DNA from: Liolophura sinensis
Taxonomy: Eukaryota; Mollusca; Polyplacophora; Chitonida; Chitonidae
Direction of reading: 5' to 3'
Length of the DNA stretch: 64,000 nt
Assembly (NCBI RefSeq): GCF_032854445.1
Contig: NC_088302.1
Location: 50,064,046 to 50,128,045, forward strand
A program made the translations under genes and the position numbers. Below, one piece after another: positions 35,527-64,000 of the stretch. A model generated the notes under the pieces. That model was not told where the DNA came from and did not search any database. It was given only the letters and a program-made list of their open reading frames with translations. Each line of letters opens with the position of its first letter. Position 1 is the stretch's first letter.

Positions 35527-38500
35527 CCTATAATTGTCAATACTGGAAAATTATTATTATTTCGTGGAGTAACCTTCAATTCAAATCAACGATCATGTAC
35601 TTAGCATGAGTAGTCTATTTTGAAGGTCTTGTTGACATGACGGTGGATTTCAGAGTCCATCCAGTCTCAAAGGTCAACTCAAGGTCGCAGATATTGAATT
35701 TTGAGGGTAAATATAACTTATCTCCTTACTTTGAGGTCTGCACACGGCAAGCCATGACGGCAAACACTTAGGCCCGTAATACAGGTAGAATCACTATGAT
35801 CTGTGCATTCCTTCACTTCCATTCACCAGCGTTCACTTGAAATTTGATCAGCGCTAAATTGACCGACCAACATAAAATACACATAAGCTGAGAAAGCATA
35901 GAATAACCAACCCCTATGTCATATATACATTTTTTCTTGAATTTTTCCCACTGAATTCAACTCTTTCCACACTCTAGACCGGAATTATTACTGAAAGTTG
36001 CGACTTTCTTTTGGCACTACCGGAACAATTATTTCAGTGTACCTGTTGGCAAAAACACTAAATAAACACTATTTGGAAAGAGGTTTGAAATGACCAATTC
36101 AATAGCTTAAATTAGTGTAAGTGAATTATGCCTGAAACGCTCTAGGAGGGAGTTTACAATCTTCTTTGAACTGAGCTTATAAAAGATACATTTTCATTTG
36201 GAAAAAAATATTTAGAATACCATATATATTGCCATGCACTATTATGCCATTCACTTCGTCTGGAGTACATGTTTTGTTTTTCTGTACTGTGGAGGCCACC
36301 TCAGGGAACATATATATTCAATTTTCAAAATAGAAAATTTTATTCTATTGTGTAAATTGCATACGTTTACTGGCTCACTGTAATTGTACAATTATGGAAC
36401 ATGTGGATGCTAAGAAGTTGACCTGAATCAAAGGCATCAAGATGAGAGTAAACAGTGTTCTGGCGGTGCGATACCAAGTAACTCTGTATGAAACTTATGT
36501 ACCTATGATGAGATCCAGTCTGTTTTCTTTTCGTGGGTATATTGAGGAACATTATGAAACTTATATACACAAGTGAAAAACAGCCTGTTTTCTTTTCGAG
36601 GATGACTGGATATTTTCCTGCACTATCTTTCTTTCGGAGGTCGTAGGTTGTTGGAGTTACAAAATCAGAAGCGAATGACGACAAGCCACCGCCTTACAAA
36701 TCGTTTGTGAAGGAAGATGACAAAATCCATGACAAGGCAGAATCGGATACTTTCGGTGAAGATGAAAACAAGGAACGTGGAAATTGGAGCGGAAAACTGG
36801 ACTTCATCTTATCCTGTATTGGATTTGCAGTCGGTCTTGGGAACGTATGGCGATTTCCATACAAGTGTTACGACAATGGCGGAGGTAGGGAATTAGTTTT
36901 TGGTTCGTTGTTTGACAATACTTAACTCAGAACATACAAACCTCATCAGGAATCGTCCACAGGGAGAGAATATGTACAGGTAGCAGATAACACGAATTGC
37001 GCACTAGTCGCACAAAAAATCGGAAAGGTCCATTGATAACCTTGGCATAAAACTTCATAAAGTGGAAAAATGATTTACAAAACAAACAGCAAGAAAAATA
37101 AGTTCCTAACTCACTCCCAAGGAAGATAATACACATAACATCATAACAATCAAAGACAAAAACAAACACTGACCCCAACATCCTGTTAGATTTGTCATGT
37201 GCATGTTAAAATCATTTTTTGAATATATTTTAAGAAAGCAAACAGTATAGTGTGTGACCTTGCCCTCACGATTGTTAAATACAAACACTGAAGATAAGAT
37301 CTACAGTTAATTGCGCGGACCATGTCCTATTGCTCTACAAATATATCCAAAACTTCTTTAAATTTACATGCCCAGTAAGAGCACATATAAAGGCAAGATG
37401 TTGTTTACTCACCAACCCTAATAATGTCCCGGGCATATTATTTGTGCTATTTTTACTCTATATACGTGTGAAACTTTTTGATGTTACCCAAAACTTGCTC
37501 AACTTGCCCATTCACTTGGAAGGCTTTCCCTGCCAAGTGACCAAGAAATTGGTCACTCCAATCTTAATAGCCATGAAGTTATCCACAAAGCGCATCATGC
37601 CAACACTTTGATGCTTGAACAAGCGCTTAAAAAGCATTGAACATCTAAGCTTGAATTCTGGGCTGGAAATTCCAAATATCTGAGCCTATAAGGCGAACTA
37701 TACTTTGTTTATCTGGTACATGATTGGTTCTTACCTTTATATAGAAATGATCATTATGTATACAAATTTATCGGACTCTTGCTAAAAATTACCTTTGTGA
37801 ATGAGTAAATATACTAATAAAGTCTCGAAATAATGACTCACCATTCTGAGCCTCACATCTTAAAAATTGTTCTTAAAAACGTGTTAAATTTTTTCCAGTA
37901 ATTTTTACTATATAGTATTTGTCATGATTTCAAGATATATTTTTCCTCAGAGATTTTCACCTTGGTGGAAAGTCAGGTGATATCCTCGCCAGAGAGAAAC
38001 AAGATGGTTGACAAAATGTGGTCGATATCAAAGCCAAGAGCAAACTGTTGACTATCGAAGTGTAGAACCGGATTGTATATTGACGAATTATAACCTATTT
38101 ATGTCAGCGACCATTTTGGATCCCGTGACTTTTCAACCAGATGATATCCTCTAAAACTTAATACTAAAAATTGCAGGCTGTCTCTAAGAAAATTAAAAGC
38201 GAATTGCTTCACCTTTGCCAAACAGGTGCTTTCCTAATTCCCTATACCCTGATGTTGGCCCTGGCTGGACTACCGTTATTTTTCATGGAACTGTCATTTG
38301 GCCAGTTTTCATCTCTAGGACCAATTACAATCTGGAAAATTAGCCCACTGTTCAAAGGTAAGACAAGAATGTGAGCAATGCTGCTACCAAGACCAGTTCT
38401 GATGAAATATTTCCTGTTTATATGTGTTCAGAGTATTACATATGTATGTAATACACGTATTTCACCGGTTACGTGAGACCATTTGGCCGTATTTCACCGG

Positions 38501-41500
38501 TTAGGTGTGACCATTTGACCGTATTTCACAGGTTACGCCAGCCGTCACAGTGTCGTCGCTGCTCTGCTTTTTTCTCTCTGTGTCTTAATTATACGTCTTA
38601 ATTATATTACAATTACATTTAGAGAATCAAAATAGTGGACATGTAATGTAATGTTTGGAGACTCGCTGCCCCACATGAGTAAAAACGCTAGTTCCCTGCG
38701 ACCATCTAGCCCTAACCTTTGAATTCGAGTGTTCCCATCCAGCTTTCGCTGTTCATGCTGTGGCTTTAATCAAGGTACCTTAGTCTTGTCTTGCATTATA
38801 CATCTATCATAATCATCAATAGATGAATTGTTGTATTTAACCAGGTATCGGTTACTGTATGGTGATCATTTCCATATTGGTGGACATCTACTACAACGTC
38901 ATCATTGGCTGGTCATTCTACTTTCTGTTCCGGTCCTTTACCTCTGTGTTACCATGGTCACACTGTGATAACGACTGGAACACCGAAATGTGTGTGGAGA
39001 TCGGAAACCTAAATTCCAGCCGGGTACAAAATATCACAGGTGAGGCGGTGGTGGGTAGCGCACGCTAGATACCTGTGTGAATATCGGACATCTCACCTCA
39101 CACCTTTATGCGGAGGGTTTTTAGATAAGTAATCCGCATTCGTATCATACACGGCTTAATTTGTGGATTCTCGTGTTAAAATATAGCAATCCAGTATAAA
39201 CTCAAATGATTGTTTAAAAATAATTTCGAACAAAAAGGTTCGCCTTTGATTCACATCATTTTTAATAAAAAGTTTTGTGTCCAAAATGTTGTCATTCTCT
39301 AGGATGGACCAGCCAGACAACTTAATCATCATCATCGTTATATCTTTCATTTATCATTCACAGATAAACTTTGTCAAGTCGCTCTCAAGGCCAATCCGCT
39401 AGCTAATTGCTCAGTTCCCAAGTTTTCCACCCCTAGCGAAGAGTTTTGGAAGTGAGTCACACACCTATATATTCATTACTGTTTGTTTCTGCCCAGCTCT
39501 CTACAGTCTGAATATGTCTAGTCTAAAGGTTAGGTCTACCCTGCCACAGTCTTAACCAACTACCTTGGTTTTACCGCTCATATGTTTTGTTATGAAGTCA
39601 AAGCCTCGAAATCACCCTGAATAACAGACTAACTTATTTGGTTTATTTATTTCCTTGGGGTTTTTTTTAGGATATTGAAGGGTATGGGAGAAGTTTGCCA
39701 GATACCTTAGAGCCTTTCTAAAGTAAAATTCAAATACAAGGCTTTCTGTCAGGATAAATACGAAATGCTATAAAAAGTATGACCTGTCTGTAGGTTAGTT
39801 TAACGTTCTGAAGAAGGCAAAATACCAATTATCAGACGTAAAAACTAGATGTTTACATACTCTTTCAAAACTTATTGTAAAATTTAACGTTGCTAGTTTC
39901 TGCTGTCTTAATATCACTAAATGTCTCTCATTATCCAAAGTTGTAGTTTCTATGTATTCCAGACGTCACGTGTTGAACCAAACAGACGGTCTTCACGATA
40001 TCGGAACCTTACGCTGGCAAACCACGCTGTGTCTTATACTCGCCTGGACAGTCATCTTCCTCTGTTTAGCGAAGGGCGTGAAGTCATCTGGCAAGGTACG
40101 AGTTACATGCTCTTACAAACTACCTAAATACTTTCAGTGGACATTTTGTATGAATATTTTTTCAATAATGTTATCGCATAACATAGTTTTCCCAGTGATA
40201 TGAAATTAAAATAAAAAGTAAGCTTGAAAAAATTTTAGCTTTTATTGTTCATGTGTATGCCTACTTTACAGGTTGTATACTTTACCGCAACATTTCCGTA
40301 TGTTGTTCTCCTGATCTTGTTAGTTCGAGGTTGCACGCTAGAAGGCTCTTTGGATGGAATTATATTCTACCTGACCCCTAAATGGGAGTACCTTCTTAGA
40401 GCCCAGGTGAATATATACTTTTTTTTATGAGAATATTAATTTTTTGCTTAGCTCGGCAAACACATGTACTGGTAATTTCAGTTACTAAACTTCAAGGAAA
40501 TATGGGGCAAAAAGTTGGAAAGCTGATCTGCGTTCAATAGATATGTCTGACTTAATGACAGTTAAATGCTGTATAAGTGAAGGAATATTGAGCAAACTTA
40601 GCGTCAATCAATCTGTCAAGGGAAGAACAACAAATTTTCTGGATCAGTGATAAATCCCGAGTAAAAATAAATGTCTTTTCTTTCCGTTCCACAGACCTGG
40701 GCTGTGGCCGCTACACAGATCTTCTACTCTCTGGGACCAGCTTTTGGTGGTCTGATCACAATGGCGTCTTACAATCGCTTCAACAACAACTGCTACAGGT
40801 ACTTCTGTGTATAAGGTTTATGCAAGGCTGGTGTATCACGGAAATCGGAGAGTGGTTTGTAGAGTAAATAGAGTAAAGGTGAAAGAGTAAATGAAGAAGT
40901 CTTTTGCACAAAGGTTGTGTGGAGAATTCCAACAGCCATCAGTGATTCCAAAATCTATCTGTTTCTCATTCTCAGAGACGCTCTGATCGTTGCTATTCTG
41001 AACTGTGCCACGAGCGTATTCGCGGGATTTGTTATCTTCTCGCTGATTGGCTTCATGGCTCGGATGATGAACAGAGATCCTTCCAAAGTAGTAGATCAGG
41101 GTGAGTGACTTAGTCAGCCATTTTCAAGCCCGCAGTAAAATCCATTTAACTTGATCTTCATTAATATACGGCTGTGGGGATGTTAACATGGAGAGGAAAT
41201 CTGAGCGAATTCGATGGAAATCTTCGTGCGTAACTAGTAAGTATTGTAAGCGGCCTGAAAAAGGCACCTAAAGTCGCACGTGATCCGTCAGAGGCTGGAC
41301 ACGGCTGGAGAACTTATGATCTCATTTCAAAGTGGTCACATTTTCCCGCCAATGACCATGCAGAGTCCTTAGATACACGTCTGACACGCAAGTCTGGTTT
41401 CTACAGAAGTCAGTGGGTGCCAAACGTCAAAATATTTTTCAAAAATATTTATGCTAATAAGAGAGATTGTAGAAGTTGTATCTCGTTACTATAGTATCTA

Positions 41501-44500
41501 GTAATTATGAGATACTTTCTTGTTATTATTTCTCATTAGCACTGGCTTCCCCAGGTCTCCTCTAAAAATACTGGCTCGACAACATGATTGGCTGGATAGA
41601 AGGAACGACTGCTAACCATTGTCTTGAAACTGTGCCTTCTTGTTATTCCTGGGAAGAGAATGTATCGAGCAGTTCTATGGTTTCGAAAACACCAGCGATG
41701 CCTTTCATGGAACTGTAATTACGCCAATGGACTACCTTTTAATAGGCGGAAAAGATAACTCCTGTATGTTTTTGACATTAAAATGTCATGGTTCCCTTTA
41801 TCCCGTGGACAGGTCCAGGCCTGGCGTTCATCGTGTACCCCGAGGGGATCGCCCAGATGCCCATCTCGCCATTGTGGTCAGTTCTCTTCTTCGCTATGCT
41901 GCTGACACTTGGGGTGGGCAGTCAGGTAAGGGAGGAAGTAGTTTATTTCTCAGAACTTTATGGAAATCAGAAACGCCACGTAACCAATTCGCATAAATTT
42001 ATTACAAAAGGAAATTATAGGAACCGTATTATGATTAGTATACTACAGAATTTATGTTAATAATATTTCATGCGAATCTTAATCTTCATGTAACTGTCCT
42101 ATCAGTGAACTCAAGCATGACGTTCCTCAAGACTGATGTCAGTTGCTACAAGCATTAAAGCCAGATATGAACTTTGACCTGGGAAAGCAGGCGGGGAGCC
42201 AATGTCTTCACTGTTGGACGGGCCGTTCTTGATTTCCGTAATTTAATGTGTAGCTCCTGTGTAGCTCCTGTGTAGCTGCTAAGATCCTCCCAATATGCCC
42301 AAGTTACTTAAGAATGTCGCTGGCAGTCATCCTCTTCATAAAAACGGCAGTCGTTCGTCATATCTATCTAACTTTTCACAGCTTATGGTGGCTGTTGTAG
42401 ATGACTCATTCTAGCGTGTAGAAATGGTGACGAATATTATACTGTTCATAGTTTGTGATGGTGGAGAACGTAATCAGCGCTATCGTAGACGAGTACCCGG
42501 TACTGAGAACCAGGAAGACGTGGGTGACGCTGGTCACGTGTGTGGTTATGTGTCTGCTAGGCCTCCCAATTTGTACACAGGTAAATTTTAACATATGCTG
42601 AAAAAAATCAAGGGCATCGTTCAAGTTATTTATTTGATTTATCTAATGGGTGTTTCACGTCATACTCAAGAATAATTCACTTACACGACTTTGGCCAGCA
42701 TTATGAATTGAAGAAACCGGACAGAGCCTGAAGGAAACCCACGACCATCCACAGGCTGCTGGAAGACAGTCCCACGTAGAGGAAGCCAGCATGAGCTGCA
42801 CTTGAACCATAAGTAGTGCGTCTGTTCCAGCCAGACTGTGTTTGTATCCCAGACTTTACGTAGGTAATGGTTCGACATTCATAACTTTATTCCCAGTCTA
42901 ATAGGATAGCTTTTCCACCATAATGTCGGGCCAATTTTCCATTGGTTATATCGACATACTCAATAAGCGAGATACACGCCAGGGATATTGTTCCAGGAAG
43001 CAGTTGTCTCAGTTGACTGCAACTATCAAGGCAACAGCACAAATTGTGACAGGGTTCTGGGAGTAATGACGTCTCGGAACCCCACTGCCACGCGTCTTTT
43101 CGAATCTTGGTTTATTTCCAGCCGTGTGTTATTATTTTTCAGGGTGGAATCTATCTATTTGTTCTCATGGAGAATTACACGGCCGGATTCTCACTGCTCA
43201 CTGTCGCTTTTCTTGAGTGTGTTGTGCTATGTTGGGTCTACGGTAAGTGTATATGCTCACTGTGCTATGTTGGGTCTTCGTTAAGTGTATATGTTCACTG
43301 TGCTATTTTGGGTCTGCGGTAAGTGTATATGATCACTGTGCTGTGTTGGGTCTTCGGTAAGTGTATATGTTCACTGTGCTATGTTGGGTCTTCGTTAAGT
43401 GTATATGATCACTGTGCTATGTTGGGTCTACGGTAAGTGTATATGATCACTGTGCTATGTTGGGTCTACGGTAAGTGTATATGATCACTGTGCTATGTTG
43501 GATCTTCGGTAAGTGTATATGTTCACTGTGCTATGTTGGGTCTACGGTAAGTGTATATGATCACTGTGCTATGTTGGGTCTACGGTAAGTGTATATTTTC
43601 ACTGTGCTATGTTGGATCTTCGGTAAGTGTATATGTTCAGTGTGCTATGTTGGGTCTACGGTAAGTGTATATGATCACTGTGCTATGTTGGGTCTACGGT
43701 AAGTGTATATGATCACTGTGCTATGTTGGGTCTACGGTAAGTGTATATTTTCACTGTGCTATGTTGGATCTTCGGTAAGTGTATATTTTCACTGTGCTAT
43801 GTTGGATCTTCGGTAAGTGTATATGTTCACTGTGCTATGTTGGGTCTACGGTAAGTGTATATTTTCACTGTGCTATGTTGGATCTACGGTAAGTGTATAT
43901 TTTCACTGTGCTATGTTGGGTCTACGGTAAGTGTATATTTTCACTGTGCTATGTTGGGTCTACGGTAAGTGTATATGATCACTGTGCTATGTTGGGTCTA
44001 CGGTAAGTGTATATTTTCACTGTGCTATGTTGGATCTTCGGTAAGTGTATATTTTCACTGTGCTATGTTGGATCTTCGGTAAGTGTATATGTTCACTGTG
44101 CTATGTTGGGTCTACGGTAAGTGTATATTTTCACTGTGCTATGTTGGATCTACGGTAAGTGTATATTTTCACTGTGCTATGTTGGGTCTACGGTAAGTGT
44201 ATATTTTCACTGTGCTATGTTGGATCTTCGGTAAGTGTATATTTTCACTGTGCTATGTTGGATCTTCGGTAAGTGTATATGTTCACTGTGCTATGTTGGG
44301 TCTACGGTAAGTGTATATTTTCACTGTGCTATGTTGGATCTACGGTAAGTGTATATTTTCACTGTGCTATGTTGGGTCTACGGTAAGTGTATATGAACAC
44401 TGTGCTATGTTGGGTCTACGGTAAGTGTATATGCTCACTGAATTCTGTAATATGCTGGGTATTCGTCAGTTGCATATATATGCTTTTTATGAATTTGCCA

Positions 44501-46539
44501 AAGGATTAAGGAACAGTATAAATTTTCCCGGTATATTGTAACATGCCGGCTTTACGGTAAATGTATATGTTCACTGTGTACAATAGCATGTTAGGTCTAT
44601 AGTGTCTGCATATTCTTAGTATGGATTGTTTTTGTATGCTGGATAACGGACAAATGTATGTGTTCACTACATGTAGTCATATGCGTGCTCCAGTGTAGCT
44701 TATTTTATTTGATGGGTGTTTTATGCCGTACCGTTAGGCCTTACTCAAGAGTTTTTCACTTACACGACCGGGTAGGGTCTGGGGGAAACCCACGACCATC
44801 CGCAGGATGCAGTGTAGTATTAATTCTTTAATGTTTATACTTTCCTTTCCTTCTGCCCACAGTTTGGAAATATAATTGTTCCAGAAAAACGATAATGTTT
44901 TATTTACCCTTGTTACCAAGACTAAATCCCGTCTAGCAGACATAGGTTTTATACACTTATCCTATTCTTTGTTATCGGTTTACAGGCTACAATAATTTTG
45001 CTGCCGATATAGAAATGATGTTAGGATTCAAACCAAACATTTTCTGGAGAATCTGTTGGTCGTTCCTCACTCCTGCAATTTTGTTGGTAAGATGCTCGAA
45101 TACTTAACCCCAAGGCTAAATCCGGGAACGATTTCAGAAAGGAAGTTTTCAGAATTGAAAATTGAAATTTGCCGATTTTTGACTATCGTTGCTGCAAGTC
45201 AGCGGGAACAAAATCGTATATTTTCACTTTTCAATGTCACGGTACGCTGTATTATTTACTAATTTGAAGATCTGGTTTATTGACTTCTCTTCCAAATAAA
45301 CTTTACACCTACAATTCTGGGAACATTTTTTTATCGCAGTTAAATAAAAAAATTATACTTTATAAATAACCAGAAATAATTGGTTAAGAAATATATAACC
45401 CACACATGGTATAAAGTGTAATGTTCACCTAAACACATCAACTTCCACTTTATCCTTTGTGTGAAAACATTTTTTTGATTTGTGATTGAGAACTATTGAT
45501 GTCATATTACCTGACACGTTTTTATAGGGAGGATGTCTCTGTGTTACTCTCGGTAAAGTGTGCATAATCTAACACCTGTTTTGTCACATTCCAGGCCATA
45601 ATGGTGTTCTCCTTCGTCCAGTACGCACCGTCCGTCTATAACGAGTATGTGTTCCCGGCCTGGGGAGAAGCCATCGGCTGGCTTATGATGTTCTGCTCCA
45701 TTGTCCTCATCCCTGCCTTTATGGTCACCCAGTACTGCCGGTCTGTCGGATTTGTTCAGGTAGGGACGTCTATATCAGGCCATAGCTCCTCATCCCCGCC
45801 TTTATGGTGATCCAGTACTGCTGGTCTGTCGGATTTGTTCAGGTAAGGACGTCTATATCAGGTCATCGCTGCTCATCCCTACCTATATGGCGATCCAGTA
45901 CTGCCGATCTGTCGGATTTGTTCAGGTAAGGACGTCTATATCAGGTCATCGCTGCTCATCCCTACCTATATGGTGATCCAGTACTGCCGGTCTGTCGGAT
46001 TTGTTCAGGTAAGGACGTCTATATCAGGTCATCGCTGCTCATCCCTACTTTTATGGTCATCCAGTACTGCCGATCTGTCGGATTTGTTCAGGTAGGGACG
46101 TCTGTATCAAGCCATAGGTCCTCGTCCATATCTGTATGGTTATCCAGTACTGCCAATCTGTCGGATTTGTTGAGGTAATGGCGTCTATAATTTTAGAACT
46201 TTTCTTTTCTATGAAACGAAACTTTCCAAGGTATATATGTAATACATTAGAACACGTTTGTTCCAGATCGAGTCCAACCAAAACATTACACCTGGAATTT
46301 TCTTTATTTCGCAGTCGTGCTCTAAAGTAGTGACCCATAGGAGCGACTGGGGACCGGCTTTAGAAAAGCACCGGGCGTTGGACCTTAGGTATAAAGCTCC
46401 TCTGGGAACAGACGCGTGCGCCATGGGGCAGAAATCGAAGTCCGATGCAACAGTTGAGAGAACGAGCAAGGAGATGAAGGATGTGCTTGAGACAGACTAT
46501 GGTAAAGACAATCTTACGTTTGCAAATGATCACTTGTGA
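33369..46539 (+). CDS. SLC6-family Na+/Cl- dependent amino-acid (glycine-transporter-like) transporter, copy A, complete, 15 exons
   Basis: Exons 33369-33401, 36647-36884, 38226-38357, 38845-39039, 39364-39451, 39963-40095, 40272-40406, 40695-40798, 40976-41100, 41813-41925, 42452-42580, 43143-43242, 44986-45086, 45595-45759 and 46315-46539 join to 2016 nt, 671 residues. All introns are GT-AG. The product is a 12-helix plasma-membrane symporter driven by Na+ and Cl-. TM1 reads [14 protein letters not shown] (70-83): G rather than the Asp of monoamine carriers, so an amino-acid substrate is expected. TM6 has [10 protein letters not shown], and the [12 protein letters not shown] loop follows. 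Extracellular loop 2 has glycosylation sequons (NSS, NIT, NQT) and cysteines. Glycine transporters are the closest pattern overall, but the TM6 motif differs from vertebrate GlyT, so the substrate is uncertain. N-terminal PPPY at 25-28. A paralogue follows in tandem from 51897. Confidence 0.94.
34612..34712. repeat. (TATG)n microsatellite
   Basis: About 24 uninterrupted tetranucleotide copies. Confidence 0.97.
34884..35260 (+). repeat. tRNA-derived SINE with ACTC tail and 14-bp target-site duplication
   Basis: The element (34898-35246) begins CACAGTTGGTAGAGCG, close to a tRNA A box, and ends GTACGACGTTAAACCCCAAG followed by CACTCACTCACT. Identical CTCTAACCTATCAG copies flank it at 34884-34897 and 35247-35260, a clear target-site duplication, so the boundaries are reliable. 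Confidence 0.92.
35459..35524. repeat. (TA)n microsatellite
   Basis: About 33 dinucleotide copies in intron 1 of SLC6 copy A. Confidence 0.97.
36485..36605. repeat. Diverged tandem duplication near exon 2 of SLC6 copy A
   Basis: ATGAAACTTATGTACC and CTGTTTTCTTTTCG recur as ATGAAACTTATATACA and CTGTTTTCTTTTCG about 65 bp later, so two copies of one segment are present. Confidence 0.6.
36647..36884 (+). CDS. SLC6 copy A exon 2 (N-terminal tail and TM1)
   Basis: It encodes the cytoplasmic tail with the PPPY motif and TM1, [14 protein letters not shown], ending NGG plus one base at the donor gtaggg. Starting at the acceptor tcgtag, it opens [11 protein letters not shown]. The conserved [18 protein letters not shown] run is shared with copy B. 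Confidence 0.93.
38226..38357 (+). CDS. SLC6 copy A exon 3 (TM2)
   Basis: It reads [19 protein letters not shown] and then [13 protein letters not shown], the classic TM2 and following loop of SLC6. Phase 1 in and out. Confidence 0.95.
38453..38570. repeat. 33-bp tandem triplicate related to the dispersed repeat at 6190
   Basis: Three copies of CCGTATTTCACCGGTTACGT followed by GAGACCATTTGG-like text lie in intron 3. The unit matches the GATTTCACCGGTCACATATG region of the repeat at 6190-6345, so one segment of that repeat has been amplified here. Confidence 0.7.
38845..39039 (+). CDS. SLC6 copy A exon 4 (TM3 and start of extracellular loop 2)
   Basis: It encodes [20 protein letters not shown] (TM3), then [15 protein letters not shown] with the loop cysteines and sequons NSS and NIT. 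The interior 143 bp (38878-39020) is identical to copy B, far above the similarity of the neighbouring exons. Confidence 0.96.
39364..39451 (+). CDS. SLC6 copy A exon 5 (extracellular loop 2)
   Basis: It encodes [20 protein letters not shown] and then FSTPSEEFW, with sequon NCS. It ends in phase 2 before gtgagt. Confidence 0.9.
39963..40095 (+). CDS. SLC6 copy A exon 6 (TM4)
   Basis: It encodes [20 protein letters not shown], then a hydrophobic TM4 stretch and KGVKSSGK. These motifs are conserved in glycine and GABA transporter-like SLC6 members. Confidence 0.94.
40272..40406 (+). CDS. SLC6 copy A exon 7 (TM5)
   Basis: [20 protein letters not shown] and then [20 protein letters not shown] and the TPKWEKL-like loop are family hallmarks. 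45 codons, phase 0. Confidence 0.95.
40695..40798 (+). CDS. SLC6 copy A exon 8 (TM6, substrate site)
   Basis: [20 protein letters not shown] followed by [17 protein letters not shown]6 lines the substrate and ion sites. SLGPAFGG differs from the vertebrate glycine transporter SLSxxWGG pattern and is nearer the SLGxxFG of other SLC6 branches. Confidence 0.95.
40976..41100 (+). CDS. SLC6 copy A exon 9 (TM7)
   Basis: [20 protein letters not shown], then [20 protein letters not shown]. [20 protein letters not shown] is the conserved TM7 signature. Confidence 0.95.
41813..41925 (+). CDS. SLC6 copy A exon 10 (extracellular loop 4 and TM8 start)
   Basis: [20 protein letters not shown] and then [18 protein letters not shown]. 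113 nt, intact, in contrast with the 112-nt version in copy B. Confidence 0.95.
42452..42580 (+). CDS. SLC6 copy A exon 11 (TM8 end and TM9)
   Basis: [20 protein letters not shown], then TM9 ending GLPICTQ. 43 codons, phase 0. The position normally read as FxxxExxxTxxxDEFP in the family is recognisable. Confidence 0.93.
42627..42807 (-). repeat. tRNA-derived SINE, partial, in intron 11 of SLC6 copy A
   Basis: Inverted tail TATTTATTTGATTTATCTAA, then GGCCAGCATTATGAATTG, ACCCACGACCATCCACAGG and CCAGCATGAGCTGCACTTGA. The tRNA-like head is missing. Confidence 0.82.
43143..43242 (+). CDS. SLC6 copy A exon 12 (TM10)
   Basis: [20 protein letters not shown], then [13 protein letters not shown] and one base before the donor gtaagt. 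The last 20 nt of the exon are the first half-unit of a 38-bp minisatellite that continues into the intron. Confidence 0.95.
43223..44440. repeat. 38-bp minisatellite that starts in exon 12 and copies its splice donor, 32 donors
   Basis: The unit has 20 nt of exon end, TGTGCTATGTTGGGTCTACG, plus 18 nt of intron, GTAAGTGTATATGATCAC. The first (true) donor is at 43243 and the last at 44421: exactly 31 periods of 38 bp, with no net indel. Variants ATGATC, ATGTTC and ATTTTC combine with GGGTCTACG or GGATCTTCG in recurring blocks, so a higher-order pattern is present. One early copy has TTAAGT instead of GTAAGT. Confidence 0.97.
44700..44812 (-). repeat. SINE 3' part, minus strand, in intron 12 of SLC6 copy A
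   Basis: TATTTGATGGGTGTTTTATG is followed by ACTCAAGAGTTTTTCACTTA and ACCCACGACCATCCGCAGGA, the inverted tail and core of the main SINE family, with a small internal insertion. Confidence 0.8.
44986..45086 (+). CDS. SLC6 copy A exon 13
   Basis: [20 protein letters not shown], then [14 protein letters not shown]. YGxxxFxxDIxxMxGxxPxxFWxxCWxFxTP is a strong family motif. It follows the 38-bp array by about 550 nt. Confidence 0.95.
45595..45759 (+). CDS. SLC6 copy A exon 14 (TM11-TM12)
   Basis: [20 protein letters not shown], then [20 protein letters not shown] and ending YCRSVGFVQ at the donor gtaggg. The last 55 nt of the exon are the start of the 83-bp array in the next intron. Confidence 0.95.
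45705..46180. repeat. 83-bp minisatellite that starts in exon 14 and copies its splice donor, 6 donors
   Basis: Donors lie at 45760 (true), 45843, 45926, 46009, 46092 and 46175, an exact 83-bp period. Each unit has 55 nt copied from the exon end and 28 nt of intron starting GTARGGACGTCTATATCAGG. Each copied unit also retains ATCCAG followed by 27 nt with no stop codon, ending TTCAG|GTAAGG or similar. Confidence 0.97.
46315..46539 (+). CDS. SLC6 copy A exon 15 (C-terminal tail, stop)
   Basis: The acceptor tttatttcgcag opens [20 protein letters not shown], the usual post-TM12 WGPALxxHR motif, then a polar tail ending FANDHL and TGA. An earlier acceptor, ttgttccag at 46266, would add 16 residues in frame; the later one was chosen because it has the better pyrimidine tract and fits the family's spacing. 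The final residues D-H-L could fit a class III PDZ ligand, which is speculative. Confidence 0.88.
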   Translation, partial: SCSKVVTHRSDWGPALEKHRALDLRYKAPLGTDACAMGQKSKSDATVERTSKEMKDVLETDYGKDNLTFANDHL

Positions 46540-54900: not shown

Positions 54901-57900
54901 GTTGTTGACAATTGTATCGCCTTACAAATAGCGGATAAGGCACATGGATCTTCGTGGACGATGAAGTAACATTGTTGACAATTGTATCGCCTTACAAATA
55001 TCGGATACGGCATATCGATCTTCATGGACAATGAAGTGACATTGTTGACAATCGTATCGCCTTACAAATAACGGATACGGCACATAGATCTTCGTGGACG
55101 ATCAAGTGACATTGTTGACAATTGTATCGCCTTATACAATTGTATCGCCGTGGATACAAAACCCACGACCATCCGCAGGTTGCGTTGACAGTTGTATCGC
55201 CTTACAAATAAAAGGTACAGCATATAGATCTAGGCAGTGGATCGTGGTCGAGTGGTTAAGGTGCTTGGAAAGGAAATTTGTAGATTCTTGGGCTTTTCAT
55301 GGGACTTAACTGTCGACGACGTACATATATCCGTTTGCGAAGTCTACAGCTCCTATAGGAACGCTATTCTCTCCAACTAGTAAGTAACGTGTCAAAGGAC
55401 GATGGTTTGCGACGATAGATTGCATCGAGATCCCAACGAGATTTAGTTGAAAATCGCACTATTACTATTTCTATCTAATATCGTTGTGGTCTTTATGGGC
55501 ATTTATAACAACATGGCCGAAACCGGCTTCCACAGTTTACCAAGACTATAGCCTATAGTCTATTATAGGATTATCTCCCCCGGGCGGGCCCGTACAACCT
55601 ATCAGTTTTCCACCCCACAACTCAAATCTAACGATTAGGCGCTTCCCTCCTCACCTGTTAACCAGGGGTAATTTTCCATCACGCATGAGTCGCACTCACG
55701 TCACATCGATTAATTTTTTTTTATGAAATGTTAGACAAACCTGGTGTTCAGAAAAAAGCTGATAACGATAGCTGTCACATCAGCGACATAAAATGTTTGT
55801 ATTGGATTTTTATCGGGTCAATGACTAAACCTGACTAAACCTAAATATATTAAGCATTAACAGCCGTTAAAAACTTGGGAGCGAACATTCATCTGACAAA
55901 GAGAAAATCGTAACTGAGGTACATATCTTCATCTATTTAAATGAAAACACCAATCATGAATTTGAATTTGCATATTTTTACACTTGCAAAACTTCCATTA
56001 CTTCTATCATCGCGCAGAACCAGTGAATGGTTCGATCACTAACCCATCAGTGTGACGCAAGTCGCGTACCTTGCAGTCGCCCATTTTGGCTACGTCCATG
56101 AGTGTTAACGTGAAACGGGCCCCACACTTTACAGCGGAGTGTGTGAAGCATATTCTGTTATTATGCACTGTTTGGACTACCTGTTGATACTATAATGAAG
56201 GGGTAACATTTCCCGCTCGATGGCCACTCAGGTCCTAGCTGGATTGGGTGAGTACTCCGTAGCCAGTTTGTTTACAAAACGTTATCACAAAGGCAGGATT
56301 GACTAATAGATAAAAAAACATAAGGCAGGAAATGGGATCCCCATTGCCGAGATATAGGTTGATAAACTATGTATTAAACTGCAGTATTAAGTTTACCTTG
56401 CGTGTATAAGTATTCTTATTTTTACGAAAAGTGATGAAGGCCTCTGTACGCCTACTTGGCGCATGTTTTCGATCTAGGCTCTTAAAGAACCACAGGCTCT
56501 AACACTAAACTAAACATTCTTTTCTATGTGGATTATTTCCCTCTATTAAAAACTTTCCAAATTTTTCGCGTAGCAGTTCATGGATTTGTACTGAACGTCG
56601 CGCTAAAAATATTTCATATATACGGCAGTTGGAGTTCATTTTAAAATGCAGCCGGTAAAGGAAACGGAAGTGGTCGAATTACATCATGGATCTATTGCAA
56701 TAAACAGACAAACGTTCCCACAAGTGATGAAAAGATTCACACCCCCCCCCCCCCCCTTCCAACGACCCCCACCCCGGCAAAGTGTTTGTAATTTGTATGA
56801 CATACTGATGGAGATGGAGTGAGCTCCAAACATCTTCATTACTGCTGTGACGGGATGATTCTAGTTTGTCAATACCATATGTGAAAATATGAAAAACACA
56901 AACAACGGAAAGACATTGATAAATGTTTTTATTTTATGAAGGATTTACCATCAGTTGTTGGCATTTTGGCAGATTGAATACAAAAGTAAAGTAGGCCTAT
57001 TCACAAAGACAGCGAATTGTAGCGTAGGTCTTTTACATTTGAACCTAAATATTCCATTCAAAATTTTTTGCCTTGTAAAACGAGTAATTCTATAATCGTT
57101 CGTCATCGAGTTACTTTTATTCCTTTTCCAAATGTTGTCGCTTTATTTTATATGGCTTGTTTCAAATAGGCTGTCGGTTTCTCCAAACTCGACTTGAAGG
57201 ATGAAAAACCTCCGCCATATTCCTCCACTTTGGCTGCTGACGACATCGCTGGGGACGACAAAACCGTGGACGACGCCGAGTCCGAGGTGTCTGGTGGAGA
57301 TGAAAACAAAGAACGTGGTAACTGGAGCGGAAAACTGGACTTTATCCTGTCTTGTATAGGATTTGCCGTTGGAATCGGAAACGTCTGGAGGTTTCCCTAC
57401 AAGTGCTATGATAACGGCGGAGGTAGGCCTATTGCCGTTCGTGTACAATGCATATGATGGCTAATATTTATTTCCGTCCTCCCCTAGACCAAAAAGTGTA
57501 CTAAAACATACATACACATATACATGCATAAATAAGTTTAAATAGCGACTCCATTCCATGGCATGATTTGCGCCACGGCAATCAGAGGTGTATTACAAGA
57601 TATTCTTAGTCAGAATTCCTCTTGTTCTAATGACAGCGAAATTAGTAAAATCTTACCAAAGCCGCCATTTTGTTTTAGGCGCCTTTCTGATACCGTACAC
57701 GCTGATGTTGGTTCTGGCTGGTTTACCCCTATTTTTTCTTGAGCTGAGTTTTGGTCAGTTTTCGTCACTAGGGCCGATCACTGTCTGGAAGATCAGCCCA
57801 CTTTTCAAGGGTAAGACAGAGTTAAGCAGAATATCGAGTTTTCTCAATGAAGTAATTAGGCTAAAAAATGATAAACATCCACAAACTAACGTGCGCGTAA

Positions 57901-60900
57901 CCGTAAGCCTTGTGGTCATGGTGATAACGTGTATATTTAGTGCTGCGTTGATGGTGAAACGCGGTCTGAGAATTTGAAAGTGTTTGTTCACATTCCTGTA
58001 TAATTCCAGCTGACCATAGCTTTCTTGTGGAATATCTATTACTGTGCAATTCCTCACTAAACACGTTACATGTTAAATATTATATTTTATCAGGAATCAG
58101 GGGGCACTTTCACAAAACTGCGTGTGTCAAACTTCTCTTAACTTTTTATCATAAATGACGTGGAATGGGTTAAAGCGCCATCAGGCGACGGGAATGACGA
58201 GAGAAGTTAAGAAAAATTGTTTTACGAAGTTTCTTAAAAGTGCCTCCAGACACTGTGTTATATTGTGATCATACCTGTCTTGGTGTAGACTTTATACAAT
58301 GTCATGTCTAACCAGGTATCGGCTACTGTATGGTGATCATTTCCATACTGGTGGACATCTACTACAACGTCATCATTGGCTGGTCATTCTACTTTCTGTT
58401 CCGGTCCTTTACCTCTGTGTTACCATGGTCACACTGTGATAACGACTGGAACACCGAAATGTGTGTGGAGATCGGAAACCTAAATTCCAGCAGGGTGCAG
58501 AATATTACTGGTTAGTGGTTAGTGTGCTGTACAGTATATGTCATCGTCGTTGATAGAGGGTGGAAAAGAAGTACGGTAGGTCACATGATCACTCTTGTGA
58601 GTCCAAATTGGCCAAGCTTGGTATGTACAATTACAGCTAACGCCAGATCACATGGGACTGAGTAAGAGACTAATTTTATGTGATTACGAAAATAAAAAAA
58701 GCATTATTATTGTTGTTTATTCCACATCTCTGCTAGAAAACGCAAAAATGAGCTCATGCGGCACGATGCTTAATGTATTTTTCCTAAATATATATACTTT
58801 GTGCTATCACTGCAAACTTTATTACAACTTGAATAAAACTAATTGTATTGTACCTGTACATGTACAACTGTTGACAGTATTGAAAACCGTTATGGCTTGG
58901 CTTGCAATTCGGCCAATTCGGTGGACAAACATTTTCAGATTGTTGTGGGTGTTCGAAGAAGCAGAATGGAATACAGGGGTCTGCATTTACTAGAATCTGG
59001 CGGTTAGAGAAAATGCTGCGTCATGCCAGATTATACACGTTACTAGTTTTGATTTGGCTCCAATGCGTCTGTAATATCCATATGTTCTCATTCAAAGAAC
59101 GACTGTGTCAGTTAGCTCTTAATGCCAGCCCCAATGCTAACTGTACGCTGCCCAAGTTCTCAACACCCAGTGAAGAATTCTGGATGTAAGTAAAACCTAC
59201 CTTCAGATACTGTATACTTATCAACAGTGGCGAACGTTTTGATCATTAAAATAGTTTGTTCAGTTCCAAACAATCCTTGCTAGATAAAGAATAAGCAGAA
59301 CACCAAAGTTTTTTCTATAATATAGCGAAGTGAACATAGCAGTGCTAGTAAAACGAAACATATATGCTTATATATTGACTAGACAAACTAAACTTACCTC
59401 TGATATAACCTTTAATATTTATTTATATATTCCATTAGAGTTTTACCCCGCATATGGTATATCCATAAGATGGATATGAAGTAATTAGGTGGTATGGCAA
59501 GGAAGGCAGATGTACAAATTAACACACTGAGTTCTGTTCTTCCAACTGTACAAGATTCCCGCTTGCCAGCTTGCCAGGTGGCTTGAAGATTCAGAGGGGT
59601 ACCACTTTCTGGAACCTTGGACTGGTTTCCTGACTGGTTTCCAGATTGGTTTCCTGATTGTTTGTTTGATTTGTGCCGAAATTCCTCCTTAGGTTTGGTA
59701 CCGGTAACGTTTGCACAAACTTTACCAGGGTCGGGAAAAATAGATTTTGCTTTGTTAAGAGCTGTTTCAGTCTGACGAGTAATATTAATGGCCTTGGCCA
59801 GTTCGAGATGGAGTTCGAGCAACAGGTGTTCACGGATTCTTTGCTCACAACTATTCCACTGCTCAGTGAAAATGTCTAACAACCAATGCTATTCACTGAC
59901 CAGAACAAATCTCTGCACGAATGTGGAACCTGACGTTTAGATATTCTACACTTTGATATTCTCATGCCAATATTATTAACCGCAATCATCCGTAACATGT
60001 TTTGGATCTTCCAAGTGTACTTTCATTCTGAACCACATCAAGCTCGGTACATGCTATTACTCCCTCTCTGCAGACGCCACGTGTTGAACCAGACAGACGG
60101 TCTTCACGACATCGGGTCCATACGTTGGCAGACGTCGCTGTGTCTCGTATTCGCTTGGCTCGTCATCTTCCTCTGTATGGTCAAGGGTGTAAAATCGTCA
60201 GGAAAGGTACGAGTCATAGAAACCAAAGATTACACTCCTTAGCCTTTGTATTTATTTGTATGCTGTTTCATGCCGTACTCAAGAAATATTCACTTACTAG
60301 TATACGATAGCGGTCAGTCATGGGTTAAATTTAATCCAGATTGTTCTGTATAACGCAGGGACTTTTGGCTTGTTCTGACGACTTTTCTGCACGTGACGTG
60401 CTGACTTCCACACCAAACTGGTGGAAGATAAATGGTCTTCAGCGAACTTAAAACTATACAAACGATCCAATCCTCCACGAGCAATCAAAGTGAATCTTCT
60501 ACAAATTACGTCAGGCCTGCTTTAATATATCAGATGAGAGTAGAGTTGACATGCACAGAAACCATCGGCTACAAATTGCGGCTACGTTGCCTGATTCACC
60601 ATTGGGAAATGTCTGGAGAAATACTATCACAAATTATTATCTGTTGATTACAAAGCTAAGAAATCCTTCAGAATGTGTCTTTTGCTTCAGGATATTAGAT
60701 TGTAAAAAATATTGGGAATTTAAAAAAAAAAGGCAAAAAATCAGCTGTTGAATTAATAAACATTTTCGTTGTTCAGGTTGTATACGTCACGGCGACATTC
60801 CCTTACGTGGTTCTCCTCATCTTGCTGGTCCGTGGCTGCACGCTAGAGGGCGCTGTGGATGGTATTATATTCTACTTGACTCCAAAATGGGAATATCTCC

Positions 60901-62916
60901 TGAGGGCCCAGGTGAAAACCCTCAAACTCTCATGATGTGTTTATATGTTATGTTTATACGTTTAACCCGTCGTGACATCATTTTTCTTTCAAAGAAAAGA
61001 TAACAAATAATATAACCTTAGTTATTTCGGAAGGAGAGAGAGAGGGGGGGGGGGGGGGAATAGACTTAAACAGCCACAGCCATTTTGCGATGACGTGCCT
61101 GGTAACTGTACCCAGCTGAATACTCTCGCTGACTACAGGGTCACGTGACCTGGTGGAGATTTTTCCCACTGCCTCTGTTCACTTACCTTGACCAATGAGA
61201 TAGACAATCGGATCACTTCCGTTAGTTCCAGAATATTTCACTTGTACATGGATAACACGTGAGTGTTCGAAGTAAACCACTGGCTGTTGGCAAGTAACTT
61301 TTCCAACCGTGACGCAAAAATTTTCGCCTCAGGGCTGTTTCAATGTGTAGCCTACACGACATATGAAAATGTTCTGAAGTCATATAGAAATGCTTCACAT
61401 ATTTATAGATGTATTGAAACTTTTCTCTTCTTTTGTGCTACCCCATCGGTTAACAGCAGTTGGAATTCTTAGAGCTTCTGGAATTAGCTGGTTGATATTT
61501 TGGCTTACTTGAAGAATTTGTGCAGGATGTATGTTTGTGAGAATGTCTCAGCGGCTTCATGTGCTGAAGTCCATGTTCACATTGTGAAAACTCCGTTTCA
61601 TTCCCCCGACAGACCTGGGCTGTGGCCGCCACACAGATCTTCTACTCTCTGGGGCCGGCTTTTGGCGGATTGATCACCATGGCGTCTTACAATCGCTTCA
61701 ACAACAACTGCTACAGGTGGGCTGGTGGTGGGCTCAAAATACTCGAGTACTGTCAAATGATTCCAATGCTAAAGTGTAAGAATACTTTTGAACAAAAGGC
61801 ATTCAAATCCTCTTAACAAACCATACCTATGTGTGATTTAACTGATTTTTTTATTTGATTTCTTTATTGGACTGGTGTTTTACGCTATACTCCAGAATAT
61901 TTCACTTAGTTGACGGCGGACAGCATTATGGTGGCAGGACCTTCCCATTCACGAGAGGAGAAGAAGCCAACATGAGGTAGACTTGAACTCAGAATGGCCG
62001 CATTAGTGAGAGGCCTCGGCGTCATTGTGCTACGCTAGCACGCTACAAATTGGTACCATTGTCCATACAACGTATGACTTATTGCGATCGGCAGTATGCT
62101 TACCCATGATTCCTTTCTCTTCTAGGGACGCCCTTATCGTCTCCTTTCTGAACAGTGCCACGAGCGTGTTCGCCGGGTTTGTTATCTTCTCGCTGATTGG
62201 CTTCATGGCACGGATGATGAATAAAGATCCTTCTGAGGTGGTCGATCAGGGTGAGTGGCAGTGAAACGATTAATCCCGATCCTAACGACCAACAAACAGT
62301 TCGTTTAAAGATGTAATGTTTTAAGCGAAACAAAAATTCAGCTGGTAACATACATCAAAAAACTTTAAAATTACTACACTGCTAGACATCACTGTGGTTG
62401 TCAATACGTTATCTCGCTTCTTACTGAACAGTACCATGGAAATATATATAACCTGATTATCACAGAAGAGTGGTTATCTCCTCATAGTGAGGAACACTGT
62501 TATCCTTCTGTTGCTTATTACCGCAACCGCAGGAAAGCATTAGTTTATAAAATATTTCACGGAAACATGTTTTTTTTTCAAGATTTTCTTACCAAGACCT
62601 CCCATGATACAACCTGGGGATGGTCGTGGCTTTCCCCCGGGCTCTGCCGGGATTCCTCCCATCATAACGCTGGTGGCCGTCGTATGAGTGAAATATACTT
62701 GCGTACGGTGTGAAAACACCAATGAAACAAATAAATAAATTCCTAGCCAAGATGATCACTTTTTTCCGAAGAGTCTCGCAACTATTCTGTTCCTTCTACC
62801 CTAGGTCCTGGCCTGGCGTTTATTGTGTATCCTGAAGGGATAGCCCAGATGCAGTCTCACCTTTATGGGCTGTTCTCTTCTTCATCATGCTGCTGACGCT
62901 AGGCATCGGCAGTCAG
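51897..62916 (+). CDS. SLC6-family transporter, copy B, paralogue of copy A, 3' part outside window, frameshift in exon 10
   Basis: Visible exons are 51897-51947, 57170-57422, 57679-57810, 58316-58510, 59098-59185, 60074-60206, 60777-60911, 61613-61716, 62126-62250 and 62805-62916. From exon 3 to exon 9, every length and phase equals copy A. The encoded part spans the N-terminal tail (PPPY at 31-34), TM1 [14 protein letters not shown] and TM2-TM8. Exon 10 has 112 nt where copy A has 113: one C is missing after CAGATG near 62852, which shifts the frame to an early TGA. Either copy B is a recent pseudogene or the base is an assembly error; all other visible sites are intact, and no other stop is seen. 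Exons 11-15 were not found up to 64000 and probably lie beyond the window. Substrate expected as for copy A. Confidence 0.9.
52423..52995. repeat. 65-bp minisatellite interrupted by a SINE
   Basis: AAGCCTAAGAAATGAATCAT starts at 52423, 52488 (interrupted), 52626, 52691, 52756, 52821, 52886 and 52951: an exact 65-bp period on both sides of the insertion. Units differ by a few substitutions. Confidence 0.96.
52498..52625 (-). repeat. SINE inserted in the 65-bp array, minus strand, with target-site duplication
   Basis: A poly-T run of about 19, then GATTGGTGTTTTACGCCGTA through ACCCACGACCATCCGC: the 3' part of the main SINE. GCAAGCCTAAGA on the left and again on the right is both array sequence and an apparent target-site duplication of 10-12 bp. 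Near-identity with the SINE at 29488 suggests a young insertion. Confidence 0.9.
53134..53256. repeat. Tandem duplication, about 62 bp x 2
   Basis: CAAATAAACCAGCAAAGATT to GAGATAATCG and CAAATAAAGCAGCAAAGTTT to GAGATAATAG are adjacent copies. Confidence 0.75.
53681..53935. repeat. 79-bp minisatellite, 3 near-identical copies
   Basis: CGAATTTGTGATACGGTATC begins at 53681, 53760 and 53839, and a partial copy at 53918: an exact 79-bp period. Copies are identical as far as read, so the expansion is recent or homogenised. Confidence 0.96.
54321..55215. repeat. 70-bp minisatellite, about 12 copies, with an embedded SINE core fragment
   Basis: TTCATGGACG or TTCAGGGACG recurs every 70 bp from 54391 to 55091 (ten exact periods). 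Near 55160-55185 the array contains ACCCACGACCATCCGCAGGT, a piece of the main SINE core. GATACGGCAT in the unit resembles GATACGGTATC of the 79-bp array, so the two may share an origin. Confidence 0.94.
55236..55312 (+). repeat. tRNA-like fragment (SINE head or tRNA pseudogene)
   Basis: CGTGGTCGAGTGGTTAAGGT matches the D-arm/A-box of a class II (Ser/Leu-type) tRNA. The downstream half does not fold into a tRNA, so it is not a functional gene. A similar head, GCTAGCGTGGCCGAGAGGTC, stands at 3152. Confidence 0.45.
57170..57422 (+). CDS. SLC6 copy B exon 2 (N-terminal tail and TM1)
   Basis: The acceptor ttcaaatag opens [19 protein letters not shown], and TM1 is [14 protein letters not shown]. 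It is five codons longer than exon 2 of copy A in the acidic tail; from [18 protein letters not shown] onward the two align without gaps. Confidence 0.94.
57679..57810 (+). CDS. SLC6 copy B exon 3 (TM2)
   Basis: [20 protein letters not shown], then [17 protein letters not shown]. 132 nt as in copy A, but only about 75% identical in DNA (33 differences), mostly silent. Confidence 0.95.
58316..58510 (+). CDS. SLC6 copy B exon 4 (TM3, loop 2)
   Basis: 195 nt with only seven differences from copy A, and 143 consecutive identical bases (58349-58491). Protein sequence is identical across this exon apart from the ends. The donor is gttagt. Confidence 0.96.
59098..59185 (+). CDS. SLC6 copy B exon 5
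   Basis: [20 protein letters not shown] and then FSTPSEEFW. Sequon NCT. Length 88 nt and phase 2 out, as in copy A. Confidence 0.9.
59440..59882 (-). pseudogene. Possible LTR-retrotransposon gag remnant in intron 5 of copy B
   Basis: A minus-strand frame contains [18 protein letters not shown], resembling the RExLLxExxLTLxKAxxI segment of Gypsy-type gag, then a polar stretch with repeated SGNQ and cysteines downstream that could be a decayed zinc knuckle. No protease, polymerase or LTR was seen. The SGNQ part is a 12-13-bp tandem repeat. Confidence 0.35.
60074..60206 (+). CDS. SLC6 copy B exon 6 (TM4)
   Basis: [20 protein letters not shown], then TM4 and KGVKSSGK before the donor gtacga. 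133 nt as in copy A. Confidence 0.94.
60258..60312 (-). repeat. SINE tail fragment, minus strand
   Basis: CATGCCGTACTCAAGAAATA followed by TTCACTTACTAGTATACG: a short diverged piece of the inverted main SINE tail. Confidence 0.6.
60777..60911 (+). CDS. SLC6 copy B exon 7 (TM5)
   Basis: [20 protein letters not shown] and then [14 protein letters not shown] before the donor gtgaaa. 135 nt, phase 0. Confidence 0.95.
61613..61716 (+). CDS. SLC6 copy B exon 8 (TM6)
   Basis: [20 protein letters not shown] and then [14 protein letters not shown]: protein identical to copy A in this exon, with DNA about 94% identical. Confidence 0.95.
61844..62045 (-). repeat. tRNA-derived SINE, minus strand, in intron 8 of copy B
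   Basis: TGGACTGGTGTTTTACGCTA, GGCGGACAGCATTATGGTGG and GTAGACTTGAACTCAGAATG (inverted B-box region) follow each other to a decayed head ending near 62045. Part of the core is deleted. Confidence 0.82.
62126..62250 (+). CDS. SLC6 copy B exon 9 (TM7)
   Basis: [20 protein letters not shown] and then [20 protein letters not shown] before the donor gtgagt. 125 nt as in copy A. Confidence 0.95.
62612..62743 (+). repeat. SINE 3' part in intron 9 of copy B
   Basis: GGATGGTCGTGGCTTTCCCC to GTACGGTGTGAAAACACCAA plus AACAAATAAATAAA: core and tail of the main SINE, moderately diverged. Confidence 0.82.
62805..62916 (+). pseudogene. SLC6 copy B exon 10 with a one-base deletion
   Basis: It opens [16 protein letters not shown] as in copy A. 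After ATG, copy A has CCC ATC TCG while copy B has only CAG TCT CAC, one base short. The frame is lost and reaches TGA about 40 nt later. Read in the shifted frame, the rest still matches [14 protein letters not shown] and the donor gtatgt is intact. Confidence 0.88.
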
Positions 62917-64000
62917 GTATGTAGAAGAGCCCACAGGCTACATTATCTTTATTGTAACCCAAGCTAGAATGACCTGCAGGCAAGCAACCATAGCGTAGTA
63001 AAGGGTAAGGAAGATGTAATGGGCAATACATTTCAGCACAACAATCCCCACGATATTCCCGCTAAACTCACCCAACTGTGTTAGGGTGGGTTACATATGT
63101 GCTGATCATAAAGCACAGAAATAATAGTGGAAACAATTCTTTGTTTGTTTCTACAGAACACAGAATGTTACAAACCAGATTTGACAGTAAATCACACCTT
63201 AAAAAATATGTTTGATACAGAATAGTTCCTTCCTTATTAAGTACAAAAAAAAAACCAGCTCAGATACGCCAGGGGTGTGAGAAGTAGACCCTACATTAAA
63301 TGCTTTATTAATTGAGTAAATAGCTTTCCCATATCTGGAACAGCATACATGCGACACCTGTCCTGACCATACTGTTTTCTGTGTTTCAAGCACTCCATGA
63401 ATGACTGTTCAATTAAGCGATTTATTATGCACTAAGCTGCTGAATAGCTTAATTCAAGGACACAACTCTCACCGTACAATTAGCCCTTAAAAATAGGATC
63501 TGATTCTCTGCGACTGATACCCGTGAAAATGTTCAGATATTGGACTTCCCACTGAATCCACGTTGCTCCCATTCTCCGCCTTAGATTCTGGGGTCAGCTA
63601 TTGGATACCTGTAGTGATATAATGTACTGTTGTAGCACGATGACTACACGGCTGTTATATACCGCTTCGGTAGACTGACGTCCACCTCGAAGCCGGGAGA
63701 CATGGGGGTCAAACCCAGGTCGGGTCATATCAAAGACAAAGACACAAGAAAACACAGTATATGTACATACACCTAATGACTCCTCCTAATGATTGTTAAG
63801 TACGACGTAAACCGAAAGCATACATACATCCCGTTCACATATATGCTTCCAGGTTATACCTGTTAAACATGTTCTCTGCACCATAAGGCCGCAATATTGC
63901 CGATGTGGCTTTAAACTATAATCCATAATCACCACCCACTCATCCCCCACCCCCACCCTCACTGTCGGCTTGACAGTGGTGACAAGAAGCAGTAGAAGGT
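62917..64000. other. Intron 10 (or flank) of SLC6 copy B
   Basis: No counterpart of copy A exon 11 was found here. From about 63650 to 63835 a SINE related to the ACTC-tailed family is present (TGATTGTTAAGTACGACGTA then AACCGAAAGCATACATACAT), and the piece CCGCAATATTGCCGATGTGG at 63889 resembles another SINE tail. Nothing else was recognised. Confidence 0.6.

Follow-up and report, generated by a model that had tools for sequence, protein, structure and literature searches.

A minisatellite that places 31 further copies of a splice donor in an intron of a chiton SLC6 gene

The window, a stretch of 64,000 nucleotides from the chiton Liolophura sinensis, contains a gene of the sodium:neurotransmitter symporter family (SLC6), here called gene A, and part of a paralogue, copy B. 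The family was assigned by translation and homology: the nearest solved relatives of gene A are glycine transporters (best phmmer match GlyT1, 8wfj, E 5.3e-201), and its last four exons match the Pfam SNF family with an E value of 7.2e-37. Because the 581 codons of gene A that were compared hold no stop, and because the A-B pair has a dN/dS of 0.076, the gene pair must have been under constraint. In copy B, exon e09 is one base shorter than in A and its frame is broken despite that low ratio; either copy B has recently become a pseudogene or the sequence is in error here. Tandem repeats occur at several places in this region, including three minisatellites between the two copies; the positions of all features are collected in Table 1.

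Table 1. Genes, exons and repeats discussed in the text. Positions refer to the window unless another locus or contig is named; a slash in a motif marks the exon-intron boundary.
Feature	Position	Strand	Description
SLC6 gene A	36773..46536	+	14 coding exons by homology; e03 and e04 with provisional ends
Exon e11 (exon 12 of the initial annotation)	43143..43242	+	encodes a 34-residue stretch, phase 1 end; by translation and homology
38-bp minisatellite	43223..44440	+	32 units with exon end, donor and intron start; by TRF and unit listing
Authentic donor GTAAGT	43243..43248	+	first of the ladder; only donor predicted to keep the frame into the next exon
Decayed unit beyond the array	44537..44574	+	30/38 matches to the unit; donor now GTAAAT
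Exon e12	44986..45086	+	completes a split G codon, then encodes 33 residues
Exon e13	45595..45759	+	ends ...YCRSVGFVQ; donor GTAGGG
83-bp minisatellite of gene A	45704-46189	+	5.9 copies; last 56 bp of e13, donor and 27 bp of intron start; by TRF
SLC6 copy B	57311..64000	+	extends past the window into L019
Exon e09 of copy B	62804-62916		one base shorter than in A
83-bp array of copy B	L019 3103-6459		at exon e13
Minisatellite between A and B	52624-52995		65 bp x 5.7
Minisatellite between A and B	53679-53925		79 bp x 3.1, 100% matches
Minisatellite between A and B	54353-55134		70 bp x 11.2
21-bp array	4972-5542		unit CTCAGGTAAACCTCTGGTATA
Gene E acceptor array	L027 8653 to L028 780	minus strand of cluster	at exon e11
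GGTAAGT ladder	L046		at Core-2/I-branching enzyme exon end; by Pfam
GGTAAGT ladder	L057 (C1:26352475-26353775)		at glycosyl hydrolase 31 exon end; by Pfam
GGTAAGT ladder	L042		at DUF4457 exon end; by Pfam
Haemocyanin domains PF14830	C8:37880506-37891931		8 matches in a row

The array at the end of exon e11 consists of 32 head-to-tail units with a period of 38 bp (TRF: 32.1 copies, 94% matches, 0% indels). It starts 20 bp 5' of the donor of this exon, TACG/GTAAGT, and each unit joins the last 20 bp of the exon to the first 18 bp of the intron, so that the exon-intron boundary lies within the repeat unit, as it does in the "mirage" repeats discussed below. The motif GGTAAGTGTATAT, with up to 2 mismatches allowed, is present in all 32 units; its first and last occurrences lie at 43242, the exon end, and at 44420, which are 1178 or 31 x 38 bases apart, and the whole window contains 36 matches compared to 2.6 expected from shuffles. 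The initial annotation had described a unit composed of exon end and intron start in about equal halves, constant in length, with 31 periods between first and last copy, and all of this is borne out. Its statement that every unit offers the donor ACG/GTAAGT is too broad. GTAAGT is kept in 30 of the 32 units, preceded by ACG in 20 (unit 1 included), by TCG in 9 and by GCG in one, and units 2 and 5 read GTTAAGT and have lost the donor GT. Of 31 intronic copies, 29 therefore retain an intact GT, and the real donor is equalled or outscored by 19 of the 31 decoys.

The arrangement of the units bears on how the array grew. There are 12 unit types, units 13-19 are the same as units 20-26, and units 27-30 repeat the same order, and these repeated series show that the array expanded several units at a time, in blocks. 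Unit 1 is identical to unit 32, an identity of the two edge units that stands beside identical blocks in the interior and a decayed unit past the 3' edge. Weaker matches to the unit also start at 44446 (24 matching bases), 44582 (22) and 44630 (25), but in the shuffle control the maximum averaged 19 and reached 27 in the largest of 200 shuffles, so only the decayed unit at 44537 exceeds all of the shuffles. Nine columns of the 38-bp unit are variable, and the one that falls inside GTAAGT is about what 6 of 38 columns would give by chance.

That exon e11 ends at the first donor of this ladder, as initially annotated, is supported by homology: the donor is in phase 1, and 15 SLC6 genes were examined, of which 12 yielded this exon and 11 have a GT donor at the same codon. 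The twelfth, gene E, has no intron at that codon. Use of donor 2 or 3 of the array would shift the reading frame, and every donor after the third would take in the TAA of unit 3 and so a stop, from which it follows that only the first donor is predicted to yield a transporter. The earlier expectation that other donors would disrupt the frame is therefore correct, but the exception it made for donors shifted by three units is not, as these too would run into the TAA. Since 19 of the decoys match or exceed the real donor in score, the choice among them would seem to depend on place beside the defined exon rather than on strength.

The corresponding exon of copy B, which the initial annotation had proposed as a comparison, is present and has the donor GTAGGT, but the 38-bp unit is absent from the intron that follows it (best match 21/38). 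The array would thus either have arisen in A after the duplication or have been lost in B. Both paralogues carry an 83-bp array at the end of exon e13, with 6 units in gene A and 40 in copy B. In the gene A array the real donor GTAGGG is equalled or outscored by four of the five decoys, and all 39 extra units of copy B have kept their GT. Units 3 and 4 of the gene A array differ from units 3 and 14 of the copy B array at only 1 of 83 bases, although the two genes have a dS of 0.91; this discrepancy argues that the two arrays, which lie about 21 kb apart, have probably exchanged sequence.

Repeated splice sites are found at other loci as well, and at both ends of introns. In gene E, on the opposite strand of the cluster, about 35 further copies of the e11 acceptor are spread over some 2 kb upstream, mostly at intervals of 43-44 bp, and since it is an acceptor that has been multiplied here, donors are not special in this respect. 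The AG is intact in 22 of the 35 upstream copies, and its last base ranks fourth in variability among 32 columns. Further repeated donors were found at L031 e11, L032 e11 and L037 e07, and further repeated acceptors at L032 e06, L035 e06, L036 e02, L036 e03 and L038 e08, some of these boundary repeats having only one extra copy. Outside the SLC6 family, loci with three repeats of GGTAAGT were taken from the matches listed, which reach up to 26.6 Mb of contig C1, and grouped into 20 arrays whose upstream edges were fetched. Three of the 20 start at the end of a coding stretch recognised by Pfam (Table 1), and the open frames of five others gave no Pfam match, eight of the 20 having been put to Pfam. 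The ladder at the glycosyl hydrolase 31 exon has a unit of 39 bp, a multiple of three, and its first copy reads open; a later donor, if used, could add a 13-residue repeat to the protein. Two other observations concern repeats of different kinds: the consensus unit of a 21-bp array near the start of the window contains a donor-like CAG/GTAAAC, and the mollusc haemocyanin domain occurs eight times in a row on C8.

Whether arrays have a preference for splice sites was analyzed in 15 SLC6 genes at 252 boundaries, 120 donors and 132 acceptors, each with its GT or AG present. Another 24 candidates were left out because the expected GT or AG was missing from the extrapolated position, and 5 of an earlier 257 boundaries because the exons turned out to be fused and the GT or AG to be there by chance (C e06, C e07, E e06, E e10 and L030 e08); none of these 5 is among the recurring boundaries. 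The 30-mer centred on the boundary recurs nearby at 12 of the 252 boundaries, 6 donors and 6 acceptors, as compared to 169 of 3024 intron points at fixed distances and 6 of 756 points in exon interiors. With the 257 boundaries, the picture stayed the same when match length, radius and threshold were changed to five other combinations. When introns and exons were sampled densely, 465 of 3699 intron points and 5 of 675 exon points recurred, which puts the boundary rate at 0.38 of the intron rate; without genes A and B the counts are 9 of 207 boundaries, 221 of 2939 intron points and 3 of 541 exon points. With the 257 boundaries the dense ratio is 0.37 (gene bootstrap 0.20-0.82), or 0.56 (0.27-1.23) without A and B. 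The fixed-distance controls put the boundary rate close to that of introns; the dense ratio is lower because long arrays weigh more in it. Finally, 8 of 22 TRF arrays cross a boundary, compared to 6.6 ± 1.6 under random placement, where 548 of 2000 placements reach 8; three further arrays, in stretches whose boundaries had been dropped, were left out of this test.

By none of these measures are splice sites enriched in repeats in the 15 genes. Splice sites are not a preferred place for arrays, and by the dense measure arrays there are perhaps mildly avoided; it is exon interiors that are the protected places, nearly free of arrays. The possibility that donor motifs are enriched in minisatellites was also tried genome-wide and rejected, with 1619 triple occurrences of GGTAAGT against 2369 in the reversed control; simple repeats of TGAA/TGGA have probably raised the control count, and the comparison is to be read only as no evidence of enrichment. 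In 15 of 15 cases it is the intron that holds the extra copies, 110 of them downstream of donors and 43 upstream of acceptors; this result is in part built in, since the exon itself occurs only once. The decoy GT is intact in 103 of 110 copies as compared to 89 expected from flank identity, but that expectation is biased low by being measured against the real copy and the units are not independent, so the excess is not counted as evidence. Selection against decoy acceptors, an idea prompted by the variable AG of gene E, was likewise dropped, as 30 of 43 AGs are intact in the six acceptor arrays where 29.9 are expected. The loci sampled are those of one gene family and 20 others on one chromosome.

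The closest published parallel is the "mirage" minisatellites of amphioxus, described in Adh3, troponin C and the globins BflGb6 and BflGb9, with PGBD5 likened to them (PMC3087553, PMC3902484). These are tandem duplications over a 5' or 3' exon-intron boundary, with splice signals in many units and concerted evolution within the cluster, the edges being less homogenised; their length is unstable between haplotypes or somatic cells, and the authors' RT-PCR suggests that regular splicing is undisturbed. The chiton 38-bp unit likewise spans an exon-intron boundary and keeps its splice signal in most units (30 of 32), and its length falls within the published range of 10-72 bp for Adh3 and 150-160 bp for the globins (PMC3087553). 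The chiton arrays are larger, with 32, 40 and about 36 copies, whereas the two BflGb6 haplotypes have 3 and 6 (PMC3087553, PMC3902484). The host is also a mollusc, whereas mirages were described in cephalochordates, but this is not a structural criterion. In anatomy the chiton arrays are repeats of the mirage kind, in another phylum and with many copies. No mollusc case of mirage-type repeats was found among the literature matches listed, which cover open-licence papers only and do not establish priority, and in one mollusc paper (PMC3862624) minisatellites occur only in the reference list.

Two other systems share some of these features. Introns can be gained by tandem genomic duplication, through duplication of a proto-splice AGGT. 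The chiton arrays resemble this process in that splice sites are duplicated in tandem and may be raw material for new introns, but the intron position in gene A is common to 11 of the 12 paralogues with e11 and so is not a new intron. In human segmental duplications, internal tandem repeats with units of 30 bp on average sometimes lie at exon-intron boundaries, and they are reported to change exons or introns, often with transcript support (PMC2812944); the coding exon of gene A, in contrast, appears unchanged.

Three other explanations of the 38-bp array were considered. Tandem arrays are a usual source of assembly error, and the array could in principle be a false expansion. This is hardly credible, because the point differences among units fall in ordered blocks and because the genome was assembled from PacBio HiFi reads with a mean length of 8,347 bp at 14X, longer than the 1.2-kb array (PMC11068029). 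A second alternative is that the ladder is leaky, so that some downstream donors are used, the faulty transcripts are degraded, and gene A is expressed at a level set by the length of the array. The frame shift or stop that would follow each downstream donor, and the strength of many of these donors, are what such a process would call for; we nonetheless think it unlikely, as amphioxus mirages are reported to give no aberrant mRNA (PMC3087553, PMC3902484).

Selection for the decoys themselves, which might act as a U1 trap or shield, delay removal of the intron or guard it against premature polyadenylation, appears less probable still. The retention of GT in 29 of the 31 decoys, the scores of 19 of them and the unbroken GT of all extra units in the copy B e13 array are in its favor. 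On the other side, splice sites are not enriched in arrays, acceptors have been multiplied as well in gene E, paralogue B lacks the 38-bp array, and the single variable column within GTAAGT is close to chance expectation. Nor does the 1743-bp intron 11 contain either AATAAA or ATTAAA, the two signal forms searched, that bound U1 would suppress. Together with the lack of GGTAAGT enrichment, these results leave unsupported the suggestion of the initial annotation that U1 binding to the decoys is itself used. Its proposal that the constant unit length reflects either selection or recent homogenisation divides in the same way: the repeated blocks bear out homogenisation, and selection of the decoys finds no backing.

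The array is probably a minisatellite of the mirage type that grew neutrally and took in a splice site, with the outermost site defining the exon. A local tandem duplication, of a kind common in the introns of the genes examined, would have happened to span the e11 donor, and repeated block duplication, by unequal exchange or repair-driven duplication, would have carried the array to 32 units, of which 31 belong to the intron, with block duplication and exchange also homogenising the units. The donor that touches the coding exon would stay in use, and the intronic copies, including the 29 with an intact GT, would be removed with the intron and so be harmless. Because the coding exon must stay single-copy, the extra copies would accumulate on the intron side; and with only the exon-adjoining copy of consequence, arrays may cross splice sites about as freely as they occur elsewhere in the intron.

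Among equal donors, the intron-proximal one is generally favoured. Competing donors of human DOK7 and SRSF1-dependent sites have been studied in this context (PMC5585400). It is possible, though we hold it only tentatively, that in chitons ladders of donors or acceptors, variable in copy number, are common genome-wide, with the member that touches the exon consistently picked over equal or stronger copies. If so, they would amount to a natural mass experiment in which exon-anchored recognition overrides the intron-proximal preference reported for some competing donor pairs.

Splice-site choice among equal neighbours has usually been studied with two competing sites. Here a single genome presents up to about 40 equal sites at either end of an intron, in genes that are apparently unbroken, and if RNA confirms the use of the outermost site these loci would provide a direct test of exon definition. 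The chiton arrays also take mirage repeats beyond the lancelets and into the molluscs, and arrays of splice sites such as these may offer raw material for intron change.
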